Position numbers and translations under genes: made by a program
Notes under the pieces: generated by a model
What the model saw: only the letters and a program-made list of their open reading frames with translations
What the model was told of the DNA's origin: nothing
Databases searched by the model: none
Virus record (IMG/VR): IMGVR_UViG_3300030098_006630
Coordinates: 1 to 64,000 of that record
Length of the DNA: 64,000 bases
Source of the DNA: a virus
Reading direction: 5' to 3' (one strand)
Part shown: positions 3,722 through 18,187 of the stretch, in pieces
Position numbering within the stretch: the stretch's first letter is position 1
How the letters are laid out: every line of letters begins with the position of its first letter

Positions 3722-5638
3722 ATGAGTTTTTTCAAGCAAGCGATTTTATTAATATTTTTTGTTGTTAGTGGTTGCAGTGAATCTTTTTTAGATAAACCTG
3801 AAATTATTCCTACTCCTCAAGAAGCAATAAACGAACCTCCAACTCCTGTCATATCTTCAGAAGAATATGAAAAGAAATGCCACAGAAGAGAATATTATTT
3901 CTGCCCAGGAGTAGGTGGACCTTTACATCGGATTGAAATAGTAAAAGATATTTGTAAAGACCCCCCGGAAGTTATTTCTATTAGTGAATGTCAGGAGTTT
4001 CTTGAGTGTGACCCCAGTCAATTTAAAATGGGTGAAGAAGACTGCACAACGGACGAAGGACTACCAGGAACTAAAACCATCTATTGTGATAAAGGGTTTA
4101 TTAAAGATGGTCAATGTAAAACTGACTGTGTTGAAGAGATCTGCAACGGCATCGACGATGATTGTGATGGAGAGGTGGATGAAGGTCAATTAAATGCATG
4201 TGGCGAATGCGGCGTAGAAGACCCAGAAATCTGCGACGGTATAGACAATAATTGTAATGGAACGACAGACGAAGATTTAATTCAACCTTGTTCAACTATC
4301 TGTGACCAAGGTTATGAAATCTGCGAAGACGGTAGCTGGAATTCGTGCACCGCAAAACAACCCCAGCCAGAAATCTGCGACGGCATCGATAACGACTGCG
4401 ATGGCGAAGTAGACGAAGATTTAGATTGTTTGTGCACTATAAAAGATATCGGGACTTTATTTCCCTGCGAGGAGGAACCTTTATTGTGTGGAACTGGTTA
4501 TAAAACGTGCGAATGTAAAAACGCCGATTGTACAACTTTAGGGTTTACTCCTTGTTTTGCTATGTGTGCATGGATAATACCAGTGGACTCTGATTGTGAT
4601 CCCTATGCAGGAAAGCCTCTTCCTTATGAATTATGTAACAATCATGATGACAATTGCAATCAATTAATAGATGAAGATTTATATGAAGTGTGTTACACAG
4701 GACCTCCTGAGACTATGGACGTAGGCATATGCCAGTCAGGAATTGCAACTTGTTTCGAAGGCTCTTGGGGTAATTATACCGACGCCGGGGATTTTATATC
4801 TGGATACTGTAAGGATGAAATCTTACCTATGCCTGAAGATAAGTGTAATGGCGAAGATGAAGACTGCGATGGCAAAGTCGATAAAGACAAAGAAATGCAA
4901 GATACCGACATATTGTTTATCGTCGATTGGTCAGGGTCGATGATGGATGAGATAGAAGCAGTCTTAATTGCTTTAAATCAATTTGCAAAAAATTATAAAG
5001 ACGAAGAAGTTATACAATGGGGTTTGATTGTAGGACCAAGAGTACCAGGAACTTACGGAAACAATAATTATCTTGAAATAGTAAGCGATCTTAATTCCTT
5101 TGAAGATTTTATGTCAAGCTTTTCTTCTCTAGACAAAGACACTATGGACGGTCAGTTTGAAATGTTATACGATGCACTGTATTTGGCTATTTTAGATCTT
5201 TCAAGTACGGAACCTTGGCAGCTTGATGAGTTGACATGGACCACTATGGTAGGTTCATCAATCGCTGATTCTATCCCTAGTCTTCAAAATTTTAAGATTA
5301 ACTGGAGACCAAATGCCAAAAGAGTTATTATTGTGTTTTCCGATGAGCATGGACAAAGCTATATGATTCCTAAAAGTATCTTAGGGAGTAACTGGAACTC
5401 TAATTATGATGGCGTAACACAAGGTATTTTATTACAAATGCTAGCTTCAACATCAGAGACAACAGTTTATACTTTTACTAATAAAAACAGCAAAGATGCG
5501 AGTATGCCATTTGGAAACACAGGCTGGGAGCCATTAGCTACTCAATCAGGTGGAAAATGGTTTGAGCTTAAACATAGTCCCGCAGAGATGTATAATAACT
5601 TAATGGAAATAATTGATGCGGAAGTTTGCGGAAATTAA
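3722..5638 (+). CDS. Outer-surface lipoprotein with MopE-type Cys/Asp repeats and a VWA domain
   Basis: Residues 1-18 form a lipoprotein signal peptide ending VVSGC, so Cys18 is the likely lipidated residue. Residues about 139-390 contain five repeats of the EICDGIDNDCDGEVDED type, the Cys/Asp-rich putative metal-binding motif of MopE-like proteins common in Myxococcota and related deltaproteobacteria. Residues about 396-638 form a von Willebrand factor A domain, with the MIDAS-like start DWSGSM after hydrophobic ILFIV and a second acidic motif FSDEH. More than 20 Cys suggest an oxidised, extracytoplasmic fold. It should be exported and anchored in the host envelope, which is unusual for a phage gene. 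Possible roles are adhesion, envelope alteration or superinfection exclusion. The domains are well supported; the role is open. Confidence 0.85.
   Translation: MSFFKQAILLIFFVVSGCSESFLDKPEIIPTPQEAINEPPTPVISSEEYEKKCHRREYYFCPGVGGPLHRIEIVKDICKDPPEVISISECQEFLECDPSQFKMGEEDCTTDEGLPGTKTIYCDKGFIKDGQCKTDCVEEICNGIDDDCDGEVDEGQLNACGECGVEDPEICDGIDNNCNGTTDEDLIQPCSTICDQGYEICEDGSWNSCTAKQPQPEICDGIDNDCDGEVDEDLDCLCTIKDIGTLFPCEEEPLLCGTGYKTCECKNADCTTLGFTPCFAMCAWIIPVDSDCDPYAGKPLPYELCNNHDDNCNQLIDEDLYEVCYTGPPETMDVGICQSGIATCFEGSWGNYTDAGDFISGYCKDEILPMPEDKCNGEDEDCDGKVDKDKEMQDTDILFIVDWSGSMMDEIEAVLIALNQFAKNYKDEEVIQWGLIVGPRVPGTYGNNNYLEIVSDLNSFEDFMSSFSSLDKDTMDGQFEMLYDALYLAILDLSSTEPWQLDELTWTTMVGSSIADSIPSLQNFKINWRPNAKRVIIVFSDEHGQSYMIPKSILGSNWNSNYDGVTQGILLQMLASTSETTVYTFTNKNSKDASMPFGNTGWEPLATQSGGKWFELKHSPAEMYNNLMEIIDAEVCGN
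4133..4900 (+). repeat. Five Cys/Asp-rich coding repeats (MopE-type)
   Basis: Five versions of a roughly 17-codon unit begin near 4136, 4225, 4369, 4627 and 4840. Each encodes a Cys, then five or six residues rich in Gly, Ile, Asp and Asn, a second Cys and an acidic DGxVDED-like tail resembling a calcium loop. The copies differ at the DNA level and are spaced unevenly, so this is an old protein repeat and not a CRISPR or a recent tandem duplication. Confidence 0.8.
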
Positions 5639-11140: not shown

Positions 11141-11482
11141 ATGGAAGAGAAACAATTTAGTTCTATTGCGGTTCAATTGAGGAATGAACATCGTTCTAGT
11201 GATGAGTTTGAAATTATGCTTCAAAACTTATCTCTTGAAGAAGTGATTTCATTAAAGCTAGAACTATCTGCGAAGACTACCAATAAGAAATTATTTGGCT
11301 TTAACTTGTGGAAATCAATACCAGACATTACTCGCTGTGCTGTTCTTACTTACGCCCATAAGGCTGCTAAGACTAAAAGCGAAGCTGCTTCTTTTCTTGG
11401 AATCTCTATGTATGAATATTATCTCTATATCGAACGATATCTAGATATTAAACAAACCAACATCTTTAAGCCAAAAAAATGA
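11141..11482 (+). CDS. Small HTH-like protein
   Basis: The 113-residue product has a C-terminal segment, KTKSEAASFLGISMYEYYLYIERY (residues about 79-102), that fits a helix-turn-helix of the Fis or MerR type, preceded by helices. It overlaps the Smr-domain gene by 4 nt (ATGA), so the two are probably translated together. It may be a small DNA-binding protein or regulator. No strong promoter was picked out in the 42-nt AT-rich gap before it. Confidence 0.55.
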   Translation: MEEKQFSSIAVQLRNEHRSSDEFEIMLQNLSLEEVISLKLELSAKTTNKKLFGFNLWKSIPDITRCAVLTYAHKAAKTKSEAASFLGISMYEYYLYIERYLDIKQTNIFKPKK

Positions 11483-11697
11483 AAACTTTAGATTTACACA
11501 ACGTGAGACATAAAGACGTAGAGAGGAAAGTTGAAGATTTTCTTTCCTGGGAAGATTTACCAGTAAAAATTATAACTGGTAATTCTGAAAGAATGAGAGA
11601 ACTAGTTATTAGTGTAGTCAAAAGATGTAATCTTTTTTGTCATTATGAAAATTTAAGAAATTCGGGTTGCCTAATTGTAACTCGTAAAGATTTATAA
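11479..11697 (+). CDS. Smr-domain protein
   Basis: The 72-residue product is close to a single Smr (small MutS-related) domain. It begins KTLDLHN (Asp5-Leu6-His7, the catalytic DLH motif of Smr nucleases) and has VKIITGNSERMRELV (about residues 29-43), corresponding to the second Smr motif (usually a Gly-Lys-Gly or Gly-Asn-Ser turn). Smr domains occur in SmrB, which cuts mRNA between collided ribosomes, and in MutS2. This is shorter than usual (about 80-90 residues) and has no partner domain. It lies about 0.5 kb before a tmRNA gene. The domain call is good; the role in ribosome rescue is inferred from context. Confidence 0.7.
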   Translation: MKTLDLHNVRHKDVERKVEDFLSWEDLPVKIITGNSERMRELVISVVKRCNLFCHYENLRNSGCLIVTRKDL

Positions 11698-11705
11698 GGA
11701 AAACA

Positions 11706-12176
11706 ATGGAGCGTTGGTTTAGCGGAGCAGGGCAGCTTGTTGATTATGATGCTATTATGGCTGACATAAAATTACATTCTGAGCTTCAAGGTTCCGTTTA
11801 TATTGGCACGGATAGCCACCTGATAAAATCCGAGTGCGTTTTTTCAACTGCCATATGTTTACACGGAGCGCATGATCAAACCGGTGGAAGATATTATTTT
11901 AAAAAAACGCGCTTTCAAAAATCAAAGTTCCCAACACTTCTAGAGAGAATAACATCAGAAGTTCAAAGTTCTATTCATATTGCTATGAATGTATTGGAAG
12001 TGTGCCCTACTGTAGATATTGAACTTCATTTAGATGTTTCTCCGGCTTCAGGAAAAGAAGCTACAAGCAGATTTTCAGACATGCTTGTGGGATATGCCCG
12101 AGGTGTAGGGTTTCCTTGTAAGGTTAAACCAGACGCCTTCGCAGCAACAACCGTAGCAGACAAACATACAAAATAA
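11706..12176 (+). CDS. RNase H-like (DUF458/YkuK-type) protein
   Basis: The 156-residue protein contains VYIGTDSH (residues 31-38, Asp36), the first active-site strand of the DUF458/YkuK-type RNase H-like family, and later IELHLDVSPASGKEATSR with further acidic residues. A C-terminal segment (VADKHTK) matches the family layout. It probably binds or cuts RNA/DNA hybrids or RNA. It lies between the Smr gene and the tmRNA promoter. The fold is likely; the substrate is unknown. Confidence 0.65.
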   Translation: MERWFSGAGQLVDYDAIMADIKLHSELQGSVYIGTDSHLIKSECVFSTAICLHGAHDQTGGRYYFKKTRFQKSKFPTLLERITSEVQSSIHIAMNVLEVCPTVDIELHLDVSPASGKEATSRFSDMLVGYARGVGFPCKVKPDAFAATTVADKHTK

Positions 12177-12184
12177 AAAAAGAC

Positions 12185-12213
12185 TTGAAAACTTGACTGT
12201 TTGATACTATACT
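12185..12213 (+). promoter_or_regulatory. Sigma70-type promoter for the tmRNA
   Basis: TTGAAA at 12185-12190 and TATACT at 12208-12213 are separated by 17 bp, close to an ideal sigma70 promoter. Transcription would begin around 12220, shortly before the mature tmRNA 5' end at 12237. The promoter fits recognition by the host polymerase, so expression may not need phage factors. Confidence 0.7.
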
Positions 12214-12236
12214 TACGGTAAGATCTTTAACAATTT

Positions 12237-12577
12237 GGGGGTGAACAGGTTTTGACTGGTTAAGGAAGATTCTCTGTGCAAGACAGAGGGCTGCGTGGCT
12301 CTGTATAAACGCAGAACTTTTTAAACGCCAACGATAACGTTGTCAACGATTACGCCTTAGCGGCTTAATCAGGTGGTTGTTTCACACCATCTAAACCAAG
12401 TGAAACAAAATAAGAGAAAACTTATAAAAATCAAAACCATCTACTGCAACAGGACGGTAAGCGGTAGATTATAACCGTCTAACTTTGTTGGTTTGTGATA
12501 GAAAATCAACTAATCTTGTGAATGACAGATTATTGGATTTAGACAGGACCTCGGTTCGACTCCGAGCACCTCCACCA
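12237..12577 (+). ncRNA. ssrA: One-piece tmRNA (transfer-messenger RNA)
   Basis: The 5' end GGGGGTG pairs with CACCTCC before a 3' ACCA, giving a 7-bp acceptor stem with a G.U at the third pair, the alanine identity mark. A T-arm with loop TTCGACT (stem CTCGG/CCGAG) lies near 12550-12565. A stem with CTGCG/CGCAG forms the first pseudoknot before the resume codon. The internal frame encodes ANDNVVNDYALAA, with the usual ALAA end. Length is 341 nt, close to bacterial tmRNAs. It would be charged by host AlaRS, bind host SmpB and rescue stalled ribosomes, tagging proteins for Clp-type proteolysis. No SmpB gene was seen in the window. Confidence 0.9.
12327..12368 (+). other. tmRNA tag-peptide reading frame
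   Basis: Thirteen codons from GCC 12327 to TAA 12366 encode ANDNVVNDYALAA. The start ANDNV and end ALAA match the usual style of bacterial tags; the inner VVND is unlike the E. coli tag. The C-terminal LAA is the ClpX recognition signal, so tagged proteins should be ClpXP substrates in a typical host. Confidence 0.85.
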
Positions 12578-12583
12578 AACATT

Positions 12584-12659
12584 GCCATCTTAGCTCAGTT
12601 GGTAGAGCAGCTGATTTGTAATCAGCAGGTCGTCAGTTCGAGTCTGACAGATGGCTCCA
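12584..12659 (+). tRNA. tRNA-Thr (anticodon UGU)
   Basis: The 76-nt sequence folds as a complete cloverleaf: acceptor GCCATCT/AGATGGC, anticodon stem GCTGA/TCAGC with loop TTTGTAA (anticodon TGT at 12617-12619) and T-loop TTCGAGT. CCA is encoded. It reads ACA (and ACN) Thr codons. It starts 7 nt after the tmRNA, so both are probably one transcript. Confidence 0.93.
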
Positions 12660-12670
12660 ACGGAGAAATT

Positions 12671-12820
12671 ATGACAACAGAAGAATTATTATGGATGTTA
12701 ATTGGATTTAACGTTGCATCTTTTATATATTTTAATTGGCGACTTATTTTACACAGCCGAGTAGTAAGAAATATGGTGAAAGAACAACCTAACTTGAAAA
12801 ATAAACCAAAAAGGAAATAA
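12671..12820 (+). CDS. Small membrane protein, 49 residues
   Basis: ATG 12671 follows CGGAG 11 nt after the tRNA. A longer frame in the same register runs back through the tRNA and tmRNA and is not real. The product has one hydrophobic helix (about residues 6-28) and a basic tail (NLKNKPKRK). It is probably translated from the same transcript as the tRNA and tmRNA. Function unknown; other short membrane proteins follow directly. Confidence 0.55.
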   Translation: MTTEELLWMLIGFNVASFIYFNWRLILHSRVVRNMVKEQPNLKNKPKRK

Positions 12821-12821
12821 A

Positions 12822-13025
12822 ATGTTTAGTTCAGGAGATTTTTTAATTATCTGGTGCTCGGTTGCCATTCCCTGGTGGGCTGGCGCTTTGTATCTTGGCA
12901 AGAAACTGGACGACATGTCCAAGGTTTTAGATAGAATGTGCGACTCTCTCGGAAACATGAAACAACTTACAGCATGTGGAAAGCCAGTTAAAGTAAAGAA
13001 GGTGATTCGTGGCAACGACAAGTGA
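12822..13025 (+). CDS. Small membrane protein, 67 residues
   Basis: The gene starts 1 nt after the previous stop. Residues about 5-27 form a Trp-rich hydrophobic helix (FLIIWCSVAIPWWAGALYL), followed by a helical stretch and a basic C-terminus. The last 17 nt overlap the next gene, which begins with GTG inside it. Membrane insertion is likely; function is unknown. Confidence 0.55.
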   Translation: MFSSGDFLIIWCSVAIPWWAGALYLGKKLDDMSKVLDRMCDSLGNMKQLTACGKPVKVKKVIRGNDK

Positions 13026-13266
13026 AATTTTAAGAGAGCTTAATCAAAGTTTTCCAAACGTTCTTAGTAAACTCCCTAAAAACCCCAAGAAATCGCTCAT
13101 TAAAGCCGTTTGCTTGGAAACGGGGGTCCTTCATAGTATTGATGAAAGAGTTGCCTTAAAGAGGGCATTAACTAGGCGCAAAATCGATTTTAAACATGAT
13201 ACTCACACATCCGAACTAGTTAATCTTGCGTTGAGCAATAAACTCAACTTTGACAACATAGGATGA
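13009..13266 (+). CDS. Small basic hypothetical protein
   Basis: A GTG start (13009) lies within the previous gene. The 85-residue product is basic and helical, with segments such as LSKLPKNPKKSLIKAVCLET. The ordered pattern, ending in VNLALSNKLNFDN, could be a small RNA- or ribosome-binding domain, but no family was recognised. The ProQ-like theme (VCLETGVLHSIDER... RRKIDFKHD) was considered and is too weak to call. Confidence 0.5.
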   Translation: MATTSEILRELNQSFPNVLSKLPKNPKKSLIKAVCLETGVLHSIDERVALKRALTRRKIDFKHDTHTSELVNLALSNKLNFDNIG

Positions 13267-13272
13267 AACACA

Positions 13273-13551
13273 ATGAAAAATCTTTCCAAAAAGACAATTC
13301 TCTTGGCAATTGTTATTATGACAGCAGGAATCATGATGGTTATGGGAGCTATCATTTCTAAAGCCGAAGCCAAAACCCCAAAAGCAAAATTTTACGATTT
13401 CTCTGAGCAACTTATCGACGGAGATATTAAAAAACCAACTGCTCTTTACACAGACGCAAGACAACAAGTTAAGTTTGAAAGACTGCTGAAGTTAAAGAAA
13501 AGTTTTATACCTTCCTTGCTAAACACAAGCAAGGACCCAGTTTTCAAATAA
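13273..13551 (+). CDS. Small exported or membrane-anchored protein
   Basis: The 92-residue product has a basic start (MKNLSKK) and a hydrophobic helix at about residues 9-28 followed by SKAEAK, which could be a signal peptidase site or the end of an anchor. The rest is soluble, basic and Lys/Arg-rich. It is the third membrane-type protein in a row after the tRNA. Function unknown. Confidence 0.5.
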   Translation: MKNLSKKTILLAIVIMTAGIMMVMGAIISKAEAKTPKAKFYDFSEQLIDGDIKKPTALYTDARQQVKFERLLKLKKSFIPSLLNTSKDPVFK

Positions 13552-13560
13552 GGAAATAAA

Positions 13561-13851
13561 ATGACTGAAGAAGTTAAAGAAGTACAAAAGTCCGGTCCTA
13601 AATGGTCTCTTGGCAAAACATTCCCTACTTATGAGGAAGCTACTAATCAAGTAGAAGTTCTTAAAAAAAGCTTTACAGAGAACAACCAAGAAAATATGCA
13701 AACTAAAATTCGTCGCAAAGCGAATGGCATGTTTCTTGTAAAATACCGTAAAGACCCAGCGTTTGCAAAGGAGGCTAAAAATGGGAGTGGTAACAAAAAA
13801 AATAAAGGAAATACAAAAAAAGGAAAAACTGACACTGGAACAAGTGTTTAA
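13561..13851 (+). CDS. Small basic protein
   Basis: ATG follows AAGGA by 6 nt. The 96-residue product has a compact N-terminal part with Trp, Thr and Tyr (WSLGKTFPTYEEATNQV) and a middle MQTKIRRKANGMFLVKYRKDP that reads as beta strands. The tail is very Lys/Gly/Asn-rich and likely disordered. A nucleic-acid-binding role is plausible given the charge, but it is not shown by a motif. The next gene overlaps it by 71 nt. Confidence 0.55.
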   Translation: MTEEVKEVQKSGPKWSLGKTFPTYEEATNQVEVLKKSFTENNQENMQTKIRRKANGMFLVKYRKDPAFAKEAKNGSGNKKNKGNTKKGKTDTGTSV

Positions 13852-13960
13852 GAAGTATCCACACTTAGCTGCTCTTCAACATGAAGAGATCTTGGCTGAA
13901 CAAGAAGCTAAGAAAAAACTCGAAGAAAACAAAGAAAAGAAAAAGCTACTCTTGAGTTGA
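13781..13960 (+). CDS. Small coiled-coil protein, 59 residues
   Basis: ATG 13781 has a very good ribosome site (AAGGAGG, 6 nt upstream), which makes it a better start than the in-frame codon at 13763. The product is almost all charged helix (KEIQKKEKLTLEQVFKKYP, then AEQEAKKKLEENKEKK) and likely forms a coiled coil. The gene overlaps the previous gene by 71 nt and a minus-strand gene at its 3' end. Function unknown. Confidence 0.55.
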   Translation: MGVVTKKIKEIQKKEKLTLEQVFKKYPHLAALQHEEILAEQEAKKKLEENKEKKKLLLS

Positions 13961-14548
13961 TTTAAGATATTCTTGAAAAGCTTCTTCGTTAATTCCCATT
14001 ATTTTTCTTATGTGGATTCTTATTAAATCTTTATCTTCTTGAGGGGCATTAGCCCAAACCCATGCGGTTGTGTTTTGTAAGTTTTTTATTTTTTTATTTG
14101 TTTCAATAATATTGTTTTTAATCTTATGCCTGAGTTCTTTTGTGAGCTTGGGCGTTTTTATTTTTAAGCTTGTTGCGATATTTACTAACGATATCCAATC
14201 GTTCCGGTTCATTGCATCAGTTGCTTGATTGAAAACATCAACAAAATTTTCATTTCCTGTTCTGTCTGGATGAGTCTTCATTACTATTTTTTTGTATATT
14301 TTATAAAGCTCTGGATCTCTATCAGGCTTTTCTTGTAATTCTTTTATTTCTGTTTCTTTGTCTTCTGGTTTGGGAGTTTGTTTCGCCTCTTCTTCTACAA
14401 GACCTTTAGATTTAAAGCTAATTTCCTTTTTAAAATCTTGCTTGAATAAATCCTCATAAATATAAAATAGCTCTTGTGACTCTGATAAAAACATTTGTGC
14501 TGCTTTCATTTCCATTTTTATTTTTTTATTTAAGATTTCTTCGCTCAT
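13946..14548 (-). CDS. J-domain (DnaJ-like) co-chaperone
   Basis: The 200-residue protein starts best at MSEEI (14548); longer in-frame extension reads as noise. Residues about 99-140 hold LYKIYKKIVMKTHPDRTGNE, containing the HPD motif that activates Hsp70 ATPase activity, followed by a helix with FNQATDAMNRNDW, as in J-domains. The C-terminal region is helical, with two Trp (VWANAPQE). There is no Gly/Phe-rich or zinc region, so it is a type III co-chaperone. It should recruit host DnaK to a chosen substrate. It is convergent with the small coiled-coil gene and divergent from the ClpP-like gene. J-domain proteins are known in large marine phages. Confidence 0.8.
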   Translation of the reverse strand: MSEEILNKKIKMEMKAAQMFLSESQELFYIYEDLFKQDFKKEISFKSKGLVEEEAKQTPKPEDKETEIKELQEKPDRDPELYKIYKKIVMKTHPDRTGNENFVDVFNQATDAMNRNDWISLVNIATSLKIKTPKLTKELRHKIKNNIIETNKKIKNLQNTTAWVWANAPQEDKDLIRIHIRKIMGINEEAFQEYLKSTQE

Positions 14549-14621
14549 ATTTATTAAGTATTCTGCGGAAAGTATATATTTACAGTTAGACACGTAGCAT
14601 TTTGTGCAAAGGTAAAAAAAA

Positions 14622-15242
14622 ATGAAAGATTTAATGTGGCTCTCTAAAGAACAAGAAAACAATATTTTTGATGATGGATTTGAGAACAGCTCTTCCTCCT
14701 CAAAAAACAAACTTGAAGTATTGAATAACAAAATTTATTTCTACTGCAATGTAAATCATGTTAACAACCTTCATCTTAATAAAGAGCTTAAAACTCTTGA
14801 ATCAAAACTTATTACTTCTCAAGAACTCCTAGAAACTGAAGAACCAGCACCGATTCATCTTCACATTAGTTCTTATGGTGGTTCCGTTTTCGCTGGATTT
14901 TCTACTATAGATTACATTCTTAAATCTAAAGTACCAGTCACCACTATTATCGACGGCTGTGCTGCTTCTGCTGCTACTATGATGAGTATTTGCGGAGCCA
15001 AGCGATTAATGCACGAGCACGCATTTATGCTCATACATCAGCTTTCCTCTATGTCTTGGGGAAAATACGAAGAATTAAAAGATTCTATGCAAAACAATGA
15101 CTTGCTCATGGAAACAATCAAAAACCTTTACATTGAAAGAACAAAAATTCCTAAAAAAGAGCTTGAAGAAATGTTAAAACGGGATCTTTGGTGGGACGCC
15201 AAGACGTGTCTTAAATACGGATTAATTGACGAGATTATATGA
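14622..15242 (+). CDS. ClpP-like serine protease
   Basis: The 206-residue protein has the ClpP/crotonase-fold peptidase signatures: HLHISSYGGSVFAG (the oxyanion region), GCAASAATMM with the nucleophile Ser116, and FMLIHQLSS with His139. The length matches ClpP. The first 27 residues are Ser/Asn-rich and lack a clear propeptide. A typical ClpP needs a Clp ATPase (ClpX or ClpA) to unfold substrates, and none is seen here, so host ATPases would be needed; alternatively it processes virion proteins. It overlaps the next gene by 4 nt. The gene 2 kb upstream is a tmRNA, which tags proteins for such proteases. Confidence 0.85.
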   Translation: MKDLMWLSKEQENNIFDDGFENSSSSSKNKLEVLNNKIYFYCNVNHVNNLHLNKELKTLESKLITSQELLETEEPAPIHLHISSYGGSVFAGFSTIDYILKSKVPVTTIIDGCAASAATMMSICGAKRLMHEHAFMLIHQLSSMSWGKYEELKDSMQNNDLLMETIKNLYIERTKIPKKELEEMLKRDLWWDAKTCLKYGLIDEII

Positions 15243-15973
15243 AAACTGTCTACATGTTTGACGTCGATGGGACTTTAACTCCTGCTCGACAACGAATGAA
15301 ATCCAGTTTCAGAAAGTTTTTTCTGGAATGGAGTAAGGATAAGATTTATTATCTTATCACAGGCAGTGATATAAAAAAAACCCGAGGACAAGTGCCTGAA
15401 AGGATTCTTGATAATGCTCGCGGTATTTTTACTTGCATGGGTAATGTTCTACATGTAAAGGAAGAAAAAATATATGAGAACAAATTTGAACCGCCACCCC
15501 GATTGTTAAATCATCTTAATCGTTTTCTTCAAAAAACAGGCTATGTTTTACGCACAGGAAATCACATTGAATCCCGACCAGGAATGATAAACTTCTCTAT
15601 TGTAGGCAGAAACGCCTCACACATGCAAAGGGAAGGATATTATACTTACGATTGTCGCGTCAAAGAACGAGAAAAGATTGCCCACTTTATTAATGAAAAC
15701 TTTAAAGATCAAATAGAAGCTTCAATTGGTGGCAAAATAAGCGTTGATATTTACCCCGTAGGAAGTCATAAGGGACAGGCTTTCCAATGGATTCATCACA
15801 AGGTAGGTACACCACGCACTCACTATGTGTTTTTTGGAGACCAAGCAAAGCCTGGTGGTAATGACTGGGATTTAATTAAAGAAATGGAGCGCTCCAAAGT
15901 AAGTTATTCTTATCACTGCGTAAACAGTGATAATGAAGCTTTATCAATATTAAAAGAAATTAAAAAAAAATAA
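15239..15973 (+). CDS. Eukaryotic-type phosphomannomutase (HAD superfamily)
   Basis: The start is YMFDVDGTLTPAR (Asp8 nucleophile, Asp10), typical of the HAD-fold PMM family. Other PMM signatures follow: RPGMINFSIVGRNA near residue 116 (sugar-phosphate binding), GGKISVDIYPVGSHKGQ near 162, and FFGDQAKPGGNDWDL near 197. Length (244) matches eukaryotic PMM1/PMM2 (about 250). It converts mannose-6-phosphate to mannose-1-phosphate, the precursor of GDP-mannose, and could feed the sugar-nucleotide enzymes further along. The bacterial PMM (ManB) belongs to an unrelated fold, so transfer from a eukaryote or rare bacterial donor is possible. The family is well supported; the sugar is inferred. Confidence 0.8.
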   Translation: MKTVYMFDVDGTLTPARQRMKSSFRKFFLEWSKDKIYYLITGSDIKKTRGQVPERILDNARGIFTCMGNVLHVKEEKIYENKFEPPPRLLNHLNRFLQKTGYVLRTGNHIESRPGMINFSIVGRNASHMQREGYYTYDCRVKEREKIAHFINENFKDQIEASIGGKISVDIYPVGSHKGQAFQWIHHKVGTPRTHYVFFGDQAKPGGNDWDLIKEMERSKVSYSYHCVNSDNEALSILKEIKKK

Positions 15974-15978
15974 CCTCT

Positions 15979-16791
15979 TTATTTTAACTTGATATCTAAG
16001 AGATGATTTTTAGTATCAAATACACTATCTTCCTTGGTTCCATCTACTTCTAAAGATACTCCATCTGGTACATGAAACGGCGTATGTTTATAAATGTAAT
16101 TTATAAGTTGTGAATGTGTAGGTCCAAAAGATAAATGGTGGAATCTAGTGTGCACCGAATGAATCATTCCAACTAATTTTCCTCTAGTATTAAAAAGAGG
16201 AGAACCGGAAGAACCTCCAATCGCAGGGACTGTGTATAAAGAAAATCCCCATTTATACCCAGAGTATCTCCCCTCCAATACAGGCGCAGTTTGGGTATTA
16301 AACATTCCAACTGGTGCAGCAATATTATAAATCATATCACCAATAACTGGTGCATCATTTCTTTCTATTCTAACAGGAGCTTTAGAAAATCCTTTTGCGT
16401 ATAATATACATGTATCCAGTTTGTTATTGATATTTATGGTTATAGTTTGGTGTTTTATACCATTCATATCAATAAGGAATGTTTTTTGTTTTATCTTCGC
16501 CCCGCCCCCTAAATCATGTAGAATCGCACGAGGATCACAGCTGTGCCCTGTAGTTAAAATATAAGAACCATGCTCATAAGCTCTTACTACTGCTCCACTT
16601 GATGTAGCTCCGAGTTTAAAGTTCATGCACGTTTTTCCAACGCACTTAACCACATCATAACTGGCAACAACTTTTACAAACGAATCAAAAGGAAGTTTGT
16701 TTTTTAATGAAAAATGTCCATTAAGTGTACCTCCGCAAGATGCCAAAAATATCAATGAAATCATTAATATAAGAAATTTCAAACTTTTCAT
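15979..16791 (-). CDS. Trypsin-like serine protease, exported lipoprotein
   Basis: Residues 1-19 are a lipoprotein signal peptide ending LASC (Cys19 likely lipidated). The catalytic triad of the trypsin (S1) fold is complete: His83 in LTTGHSC, Asp126 in NNKLDTCIL and Ser195 in GGSSGSPLF. Cys pairs near 50/55 suggest a disulfide. There is no PDZ domain, unlike HtrA/DegP. The protein should work in the periplasm or at the cell surface, perhaps on host envelope proteins or on incoming phage. It is on the opposite strand to its neighbours, with its own promoter region facing the PhoH gene. AAGGAG lies upstream of the ATG. Confidence 0.85.
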   Translation of the reverse strand: MKSLKFLILMISLIFLASCGGTLNGHFSLKNKLPFDSFVKVVASYDVVKCVGKTCMNFKLGATSSGAVVRAYEHGSYILTTGHSCDPRAILHDLGGGAKIKQKTFLIDMNGIKHQTITININNKLDTCILYAKGFSKAPVRIERNDAPVIGDMIYNIAAPVGMFNTQTAPVLEGRYSGYKWGFSLYTVPAIGGSSGSPLFNTRGKLVGMIHSVHTRFHHLSFGPTHSQLINYIYKHTPFHVPDGVSLEVDGTKEDSVFDTKNHLLDIKLK

Positions 16792-16861
16792 GGGATTTTT
16801 TCTCCTTGTAAAAATAACTAGAACCTATTTGGTTTTCTATTTATTAATGTAAGGAATATCC
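16792..16861. promoter_or_regulatory. Divergent promoter region between protease and PhoH genes
   Basis: The 70-nt AT-rich gap separates the minus-strand protease and the plus-strand PhoH gene. It holds AAGGAG sites for both starts (reverse strand at about 16800-16806; forward TAAGGAA at 16850) and a short imperfect inverted repeat with AACC/GGTT around 16822-16836. Two promoters must lie here, but no consensus box could be assigned. Confidence 0.4.
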
Positions 16862-18187
16862 ATGAAAAAAACATACGTCTTCGACACAAGTGCTATTTTG
16901 TCAGACTATAAATGCATCTATGAATACAAAAAAAACGATATTGTTATTCCTTTTAAGGTGTTAGAAGAAATTGACGCGCAGAAAAAACGACAAGATGGTG
17001 TCGGGTTTAATGCACGTATGATTATTAGAGAGCTTGATCTTTTAAGAGCTAAAGGAAATATTTATCGAGGTGTCCGTATAGAAAAAGGGAAAGGTTTATT
17101 ATCTATTCGAGGGTATGATAAAAATCTTTTACCTGATGAATATAAATTATCGAGTGCAGACAATGAGATTATTGGAACAGCCATAACAGAAAGAAAAAGA
17201 AATTTCTCTCGTCAAGTTATCATGGTCACTAAAGATATCCACATGCGTGTTAAATGCGATACATTAGAATTGCCATGTGAAGATTATGATAAAGATAAAA
17301 TAAACAATACTAGCCACGAATCATACACCGGAGTAGTTGAGCATGTTTTAGATGATAAACTTATAGATTATTTTTATGAAGGTCAAGAAGTTTATCTAGA
17401 CAAAAAAGAAATCCAATTGCACCCTAATCAGTGCATTCTTTTTAAATCAAATCAAGATTTTAAAAAAACCGCACTCGCAAAATTTGTTGATTATGACACG
17501 CCAATTAAAAAAATTCCCACTATCAAAAGAGGTATTTGGGGAGTAAAACCAAAAAACAAAGAACAGGTTTTTGCTTCTAATCTTCTCATGAGTGAAGACA
17601 TTCCTATTGTGTCTTTAGTAGGACCAGCAGGTTCAGGAAAAACGTTACTAGCTATAGCAGCGGGCTTAGAACAAACACTTGGCATGGGTCTTTACAATAA
17701 ACTTGTAATCTCTAGACCTGTCCAGCCAGTTGGTAAAGACATTGGATTTTTACCAGGAACCGTCGAAGAAAAAATGAACCCTTGGCTTGCTCCGATTAGA
17801 GACAACCTTGAGTTTTTAATGTCCTACTCTTATTCTAAAAGAGATAACTACGAAACTCTTGATACCTATATTGAATCAGGCGTCATTGAAGTAGAAGCCT
17901 TGACTTACATCCGAGGTCGCTCTATTGCAAATGCTTATATTATTATTGATGAATCTCAGAACTTAACAGCACATGAATTAAAGACTATAATAACTCGTGT
18001 AGGAGAAAATACAAAAATTATCTTAACAGGAGACGTTGAACAGATAGATAATCTCTATGTTAATCAACAATCAAATGGTCTATCATATGCGATAGAAAAG
18101 TTTAAAGAACACGATTTAGCAGCCCACTTAACTTTAAAAAAAGGCGAAAGAAGTGCAGTTGCGACATTAGCATCAAAAATATTATAG
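16862..18187 (+). CDS. phoH: PIN-PhoH fusion ATPase
   Basis: Residues about 1-140 form a PIN-type nuclease domain (YVFDTSAIL at the start, with Asp and Glu in VLEEID and a second acidic site near SADNE). Residues about 235-441 form PhoH: Walker A GPAGSGKT at 254-261, a Walker B-like IIIDESQN, and ILTGDVEQID. This is the YlaK/PhoH2 layout (about 440 residues), in which a PIN ribonuclease is joined to an RNA-helicase-like ATPase. It should unwind and cut RNA. PhoH is common in marine phages. Key PIN acids are present, so the nuclease is probably active. An AAGGAA site precedes the start. Confidence 0.88.
   Translation: MKKTYVFDTSAILSDYKCIYEYKKNDIVIPFKVLEEIDAQKKRQDGVGFNARMIIRELDLLRAKGNIYRGVRIEKGKGLLSIRGYDKNLLPDEYKLSSADNEIIGTAITERKRNFSRQVIMVTKDIHMRVKCDTLELPCEDYDKDKINNTSHESYTGVVEHVLDDKLIDYFYEGQEVYLDKKEIQLHPNQCILFKSNQDFKKTALAKFVDYDTPIKKIPTIKRGIWGVKPKNKEQVFASNLLMSEDIPIVSLVGPAGSGKTLLAIAAGLEQTLGMGLYNKLVISRPVQPVGKDIGFLPGTVEEKMNPWLAPIRDNLEFLMSYSYSKRDNYETLDTYIESGVIEVEALTYIRGRSIANAYIIIDESQNLTAHELKTIITRVGENTKIILTGDVEQIDNLYVNQQSNGLSYAIEKFKEHDLAAHLTLKKGERSAVATLASKIL

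Follow-up and report, generated by a model that had tools for sequence, protein, structure and literature searches.

We analysed a 64,000-nucleotide stretch of viral DNA, hereafter called the window, which corresponds to positions 1–64,000 of the 97,175-bp record IMGVR_UViG_3300030098_006630. Its region 11,141–18,187 contains a complete gene for a transfer-messenger RNA (tmRNA) and a gene for a ClpP-like peptidase, hereafter called ClpP-A. The tmRNA, ClpP, a trypsin-like lipoprotein and a PIN-PhoH protein are members of a long, old, conserved gene block. Judging from the sequences, we consider it fairly probable that this part of an uncultured T4-like phage genome holds accessory genes for translation and proteostasis, rather than one operon-like rescue programme.

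The source virus is an uncultured T4-like phage. A putative terminase gene (83,612–85,186) is followed by a putative portal gene (85,190–87,136) in the T4 order, as judged by sequence reading and gene order, and gp23-type capsid proteins are present in two long close relatives. The relatives were gathered through ClpP and RNaseH-like searches, and about 100 loci were annotated, with some near-duplicate viruses counted among the contigs; G- and L-numbers denote their records and loci, and G000 denotes the window's own record. Neither the tmRNA DNA nor hyp113, the protein encoded ahead of it, had any match among 50,697 phage records, and searches of phage records with ClpP, PhoH, the RNaseH-like protein and Smr returned distant matches at best and no close cultured relative.

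The tmRNA gene and its conserved neighbours

The tmRNA matches the RF00023 model over its full length (positions 1–374), with a score far over the 47-bit cut-off (Table 1). The acceptor stem, GGGGGUG/CACCUCC, contains a G3-U70 pair, the CCA is encoded, and the tag open reading frame (ORF), ANDNVVNDYALAA, ends with a stop codon. The G3-U70 pair is the signal read by alanyl-tRNA synthetase (AlaRS) for alanine charging, and it occurs in all 26 distinct tmRNAs of the clade, the window's included. One additional ARAGORN call, a permuted tmRNA, was left out of the 26, and the ARAGORN 3′ end, which was 1–2 nt off in several tmRNAs, was brought into register by the CCA. The acceptor-stem pairs other than G3-U70 covary, giving the forms GGGGGTG/CACCTCC, GGGGATG/CATCTCC, GGGGACG/CGTCTCC and GGGCTCG/CGAGTCC. 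The 26 tags are variable in the middle; 25 start with AN, and the ends are LAA in 23, QAA in two and MAA in one. This pattern of stem and tag fits selection for alanine charging and a degradation-type tag, and the phage tmRNA is, as far as its sequence can tell, very likely functional. In the closest relatives (L002 and L003), the tag is ANDNVELNYAQAA, with Q instead of L before the final AA, a replacement that may change its recognition by ClpX.

SmpB was found in none of 20 phage records, while the same search detected it in 10 of 14 reference genomes used as a control. On the strength of these 20 records a phage-encoded SmpB was rejected as the tmRNA partner, and therefore host SmpB would have to serve the phage tmRNA. 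A search for the host by its tag, using ANDNVxxDYALAA followed by TAA, gave an exact match in 0 genomes of 84,980 species, and no riboswitch was found here by the Rfam search.

Which genes accompany the tmRNA in the relatives? The conserved order is hyp222, hyp113, tmRNA, hyp96, ClpP-A, the trypsin-like protease (minus strand), PIN-PhoH, hyp92b, a metalloprotease, a PD-(D/E)XK protein and glycosyltransferases. Hyp113 is the tmRNA's constant neighbour: in 23 contigs it precedes the tmRNA in the same orientation, within 1 kb of it in 20 of these, and in one lineage of six contigs hyp113 and the tmRNA are inverted as a pair. The distance from the tmRNA to ClpP is 0.3–7.4 kb in about 20 contigs from several deep lineages of the clade, and tens of kb separate the tmRNA from ClpP-A in G013 and G020. 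Another 17 contigs contain the complete hyp113–clpP interval and keep ClpP without the tmRNA; in 13 of them, searched as whole records, no tmRNA scored over the cut-off. On the PhoH tree the tmRNA label changes 5 times, against a mean of 9.4 for shuffled labels, and the tmRNA occurs in several well-supported lineages. These distributions are most simply explained if the tmRNA is an old component that was lost several times, with gains also possible.

The remaining genes differ in their persistence. The preliminary description of this stretch had proposed a check for conserved synteny of smr, ssrA, J-domain, clpP and phoH genes; clpP and phoH proved to be conserved, ssrA is often lost, and Smr and the J-protein are patchy, with about seven contigs each, as is the HAD phosphatase. 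The trypsin-like protease gene is present in most block members. Because the syntenic block extends into nuclease and glycosyltransferase genes, the region is not a dedicated island, and a single operon is excluded by the J-protein and trypsin-like genes, both of which run antisense.

ClpP-A, its paralogue and the ClpX-docking surface

The AlphaFold2 model of ClpP-A has a mean predicted local distance difference test (pLDDT) score of 85.1, with the first 26 residues predicted to be disordered, and its top Protein Data Bank (PDB) matches by Foldseek are bacterial ClpP proteins (E~4e-14, about 22–29% identity). ClpP-A thus shares the fold and the Ser-His-Asp triad of bacterial ClpP and ClpXP systems; the triad residues S97, H122 and D171 (Escherichia coli numbering; the alignment reference is E. 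coli ClpP, identical to PDB 3mt6) are invariant in 37 of 37 ClpP-A sequences. The surface is different. Besides R192, we take the residues of the IGF pocket to be Y60, Y62, F82, M92 and L114, and measured against this set ClpP-A does not possess the ClpX-docking surface. R192 is missing and M92 is replaced by D or E in all 37 sequences, Y62 is His in 34 of the 37, and F82 is mostly polar. Compared with bacterial ClpP, ClpP-A has neither R192 nor the Y62/M92/L114 docking residues, and no axial hairpin is predicted for it. In E. coli ClpP, R192K by itself abolishes ClpX binding (PMC7112951). Because the docking residues are lost and the first 26 residues are predicted to be disordered, canonical docking to host ClpX is unlikely, which contradicts the earlier proposal that this ClpP works with host ClpX in degrading tagged proteins; from sequence, such a model is unlikely. 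In its altered form the docking surface is conserved too, as though it had been adapted to a different partner.

The best-named sequence neighbours of ClpP-A are ClpP-like head maturation proteases: phrog_94, annotated as such, at 153 bits, and NF045542 at 111 bits, which narrowly misses the cut-off of 120. Is ClpP-A then a capsid-assembly protease? Its neighbours by sequence are the point in favour of this reading, which we judge highly improbable. ClpP-A has no scaffold domain and no portal or scaffold context, often lies among tRNA genes and would not be the sole prohead protease. The canonical place downstream of the putative portal is taken by a T4 gp21-type Peptidase_S77 gene (88,934–89,560) of this record, about 74 kb away from clpP-A, and the two close relatives likewise have S77. 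We have accordingly rejected ClpP-A as the prohead protease, an identity that the preliminary description had listed among the findings that would overturn its proposal.

A second paralogue, ClpP-B, was detected with a hidden Markov model (HMM) in all 11 main-clade records of at least 147 kb (G002, G003, G013, G014, G015, G017, G018, G020, G026, G031 and G038) and in two shorter ones (G051 and G058); the more distant G047 (159 kb), with ClpP-A-like synteny, is without it. ClpP-B retains the Ser and His residues, and its third residue is Asn in most sequences and Asp in three. It is encoded about 10–130 kb from ClpP-A, in a run of dUTPase, IMPDH, ClpP-B, often an amidase, and GroEL, with GroEL near in every record in which the stretch is complete. 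The GroEL of G002 passes TIGR02348, and a peptide deformylase lies near ClpP-B and GroEL in G002 and others. The record that contains the window stops short of this stretch, so ClpP-B and GroEL in the window phage are inferred from G002 and G003. The ClpP-B–GroEL neighbourhood is seen at L041:544-3770 (G002, about 140.5–143.8 kb), L125, L128, L144 and L212-L222; the amidase that often stands between the two genes is an N-acetylmuramoyl-L-alanine amidase, and the run includes a PolIII-alpha-type DnaE.

A search for ClpX (AAA_2 over the cut-off) found it in one of 20 records, and a phage ClpX was rejected on this count as a general partner of ClpP-A. The single case, in G031, is a full-length ClpX (TIGR00382, 632 bits; L182:324-1577, minus strand) near the contig start; in its vicinity are a thymidine-kinase-like gene and another gene that has a homologue in G002. 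Its IGF loop reads MGF and, compared with E. coli ClpX, is presumably shorter, with the remainder highly similar. As one case in 20, close to a contig end, it is a lead only.

Gene content of the region

Every feature named in the preliminary description lies close to where it had been placed, and the matches of the tmRNA, tRNA-Thr, the RNaseH-like protein, the ClpP-like protein and PIN-PhoH are strong (Table 1). The Smr and J-domain assignments hold by motif, DLH and HPD being kept, with Pfam scores under the cut-offs. The tmRNA's own promoter exists as a sequence; since the region contains 25 promoter-like sites against 24.5 expected from shuffles, we regard it as suggestive. The gene set described as side by side is indeed close together, except that the J-domain gene is read from the minus strand and that the HAD gene and the minus-strand trypsin-like gene were missing from the set.

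Table 1. Features of the region, in window coordinates
Feature	Position	Strand	Evidence
hyp113, 113-aa helical protein	11141..11482	+	iterative HMM, 62 ORFs
Smr-like 72-aa protein	11479..11697	+	PF01713 14.9 bits, under 25.7 cut-off
RNaseH_like, YkuK-type	11706..12176	+	PF04308 95.8 bits
sigma70-like promoter TTGAAA-N17-TATACT, tentative	12185..12213	+	10/12 matches, ahead of tmRNA
one-piece tmRNA, tag ANDNVVNDYALAA	12237..12577	+	ARAGORN; RF00023 cmscan 105.4 bits
tRNA-Thr (UGU)	12584..12659	+	ARAGORN; Rfam 72.9 bits
J-domain protein (HPD)	13946..14548	-	PF00226 18.7 bits, E=0.0019, under 27.8 cut-off
ClpP-A, ClpP-like peptidase	14622..15242	+	PF00574 98.2 bits
HAD-IIB phosphatase, PMM-like	15239..15973	+	PF03332 92 bits; HAD-SF-IIB 46.5 bits vs 41.8 cut-off
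trypsin-like serine protease, lipoprotein-type signal (LASC)	15979..16791	-	PF13365 40.6 bits, over cut-off
PIN-PhoH (PhoH2-type) RNase/ATPase	16862..18187	+	PF02562 178 bits; PF13638 (PIN_4) 89 bits

The AlphaFold2 model of hyp113 (pLDDT 78.8) has no confident match in the PDB; the matches are weak Fis- or helix-turn-helix-like ones at best, and hyp113 is no more than a tentative candidate for a Fis-like helix-turn-helix protein. In the Smr-like protein, the DLH motif is invariant in all six aligned members and ITGNS replaces GxG, and residues D36, E85, E106, D110 and D152 of the RNaseH-like protein are invariant in nine sequences. The J-domain gene is divergent from clpP, with its start at about 14548 inferred from relatives, and the HPD motif is present in the window protein and in the five relatives that have a complete J-domain. 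The trypsin-like protease, whose lipobox was assigned by sequence reading, is conserved between ClpP and PhoH and likely has an envelope function. PIN-PhoH scores 378 bits with the PHROG PhoH model and 288 bits with NF053827, the latter under the equivalog cut-off of 680.

Several further observations concern the surroundings. Between 20225 and 38550 the window contains a long series of glycosyltransferase and nucleotide-sugar-type genes, named by sequence reading, which suggests surface or glycan modification, and at 3722-5638 it encodes a 638-aa protein in which repeated cysteine-rich calcium-binding-like motifs and a vWA-like domain were recognized by eye. In one sub-lineage of relatives, a gene for a TubZ/FtsZ-like GTPase (PF00091) lies in the interval from the RNaseH-like gene to ClpP (L010:8309-9460, L009:8311-9462 and L005:2825-3976). 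The same sub-lineage encodes a TonB C-terminal domain protein (L009:11009-11641, minus strand), a small protein that contains a haem-like CXXCH motif (L009:9475-9837) and an S-adenosylmethionine-lyase-like protein (L009:5156-6292, minus strand).

Interpretation and relation to known systems

We propose that the region acts as follows. The complete one-piece tmRNA gene that follows hyp113 would yield a tmRNA that, as known tmRNA biology suggests, receives its alanine from host AlaRS and works with host SmpB. This tmRNA would release ribosomes that have stalled on mRNA fragments produced in the course of infection. The ANDN...ALAA tag thus added would be read by host ClpXP or other host proteases. 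ClpP-A, with its active site intact and its canonical ClpX-docking surface lost, and probably together with the ClpP-B seen near GroEL in near-complete main-clade relatives, would form a Clp peptidase that stands alone or has another partner, with a role in trimming or degrading proteins of the infected cell; it would not be a direct partner of host ClpX for tmRNA-tagged proteins. The Smr, J-protein, HAD and RNaseH-like genes would be exchangeable cargo, and PIN-PhoH a conserved neighbour with an RNA role of its own.

The coordinated programme put forward in the preliminary description would join smr, tmRNA, J-protein, ClpP and PIN-PhoH, with Smr cutting mRNA at collided ribosomes, the tmRNA rescuing and tagging, and ClpP with host ClpX degrading the products. 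The parts of this scheme that survive are a functional-looking tmRNA whose tag retains a degradation-type end, the proximity of tmRNA, ClpP and PhoH in many lineages, several of them deep, and the invariant DLH of Smr. However, Smr and the J-protein are not co-conserved with the others, ClpP persists where the tmRNA is lost, two of the genes run antisense, and ClpP-A is without the ClpX-docking residues; we consider a single programme quite improbable. It is also unlikely, if less so, that the arrangement reflects generic synteny, in which a T4-like lineage has retained a long stretch of colinear genes, and a tRNA-rich insertion spot houses the tmRNA, tRNAs and ClpP with no functional link between them. 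The same gene order does continue through the metalloprotease, PD-(D/E)XK and glycosyltransferase genes, the intervening genes turn over, and in 38 of the 73 ClpP cases a tRNA or tmRNA gene is no more than 600 bp away, as compared with 0 of 37 for GT1. Yet hyp113 and the tmRNA have moved jointly through an inversion, and the tmRNA and ClpP-A survive in lineages with swapped neighbours.

Several points weigh against the reading of an accessory translation and proteostasis region as we have set it out. The proximity of the tmRNA and ClpP across many lineages could reflect a linked function. The joint assembly of ClpP-A and ClpP-B is a prediction from sequence, and G000 is a fragment, for which ClpP-B and GroEL come from its closest relatives. 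Docking to ClpX or ClpA of the phage's own host is possible despite the loss of the E. coli-type residues, and since G031 encodes ClpX, some clade members may run a true ClpXP. A further proposal, which we hold as doubtful, is that the clade would run its own two-subunit Clp peptidase (ClpP-A with Ser-His-Asp and ClpP-B mostly with Ser-His-Asn), insulated from host ClpX by the rewritten docking surface and served in some members by an MGF-loop phage ClpX, as in G031; with phage GroEL and tmRNA, this would constitute a viral protein quality-control system.

How does this region compare with known systems? A complete ssrA was found in 402 of 18,146 phage genomes (PMC9004378), and phage tmRNA is also described in PMC4131195 and PMC7162821. 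The present phage shares the complete ssrA gene with the mycobacteriophage Bxz1 group, Bacillus phage G, methylophage Melnitz and huge phages. Marine and aquatic phages have been associated with two-piece tmRNA (PMC9004378), whereas the tmRNA here is one-piece. It has no riboswitch by the Rfam search, and it is tied to hyp113 and ClpP in a T4-like clade that has no close relatives in culture. Like the ClpP1/ClpP2 systems of Listeria and Mycobacterium, the clade has two paralogues per genome, one of them mostly with Ser-His-Asn, which is the triad of Listeria ClpP1 (PMC12900304); unlike them, the paralogues are phage-encoded at two separate sites, and the hetero-oligomer is predicted. Phage chaperonins are known (PMC7185714; PMC5332604), and PMC5332604 places ClpP among Fe-S-linked genes of environmental viral genomes, T4-like ones included, and chaperonins in other marine virus groups; its passages on these genes do not report two ClpPs, a ClpP–GroEL block or a tmRNA linkage. 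A limited search of an open library returned no report of a hyp113–tmRNA unit, of ClpP pairs in which the docking surface is rewritten or of a ClpP-B–GroEL block. Phage tmRNA, phage chaperonins and ClpP in marine environmental viral genomes are known separately.

These data argue against assuming that a phage ClpP must always be either a prohead protease or a partner of ClpX. From the rewritten ClpX-docking surface we predict that host unfoldases do not act with these phage Clp peptidases, which would thus be insulated from them. If phages carry a tmRNA, two ClpP paralogues and GroEL, then some viruses would bring most of a proteostasis system with them instead of borrowing that of the host.

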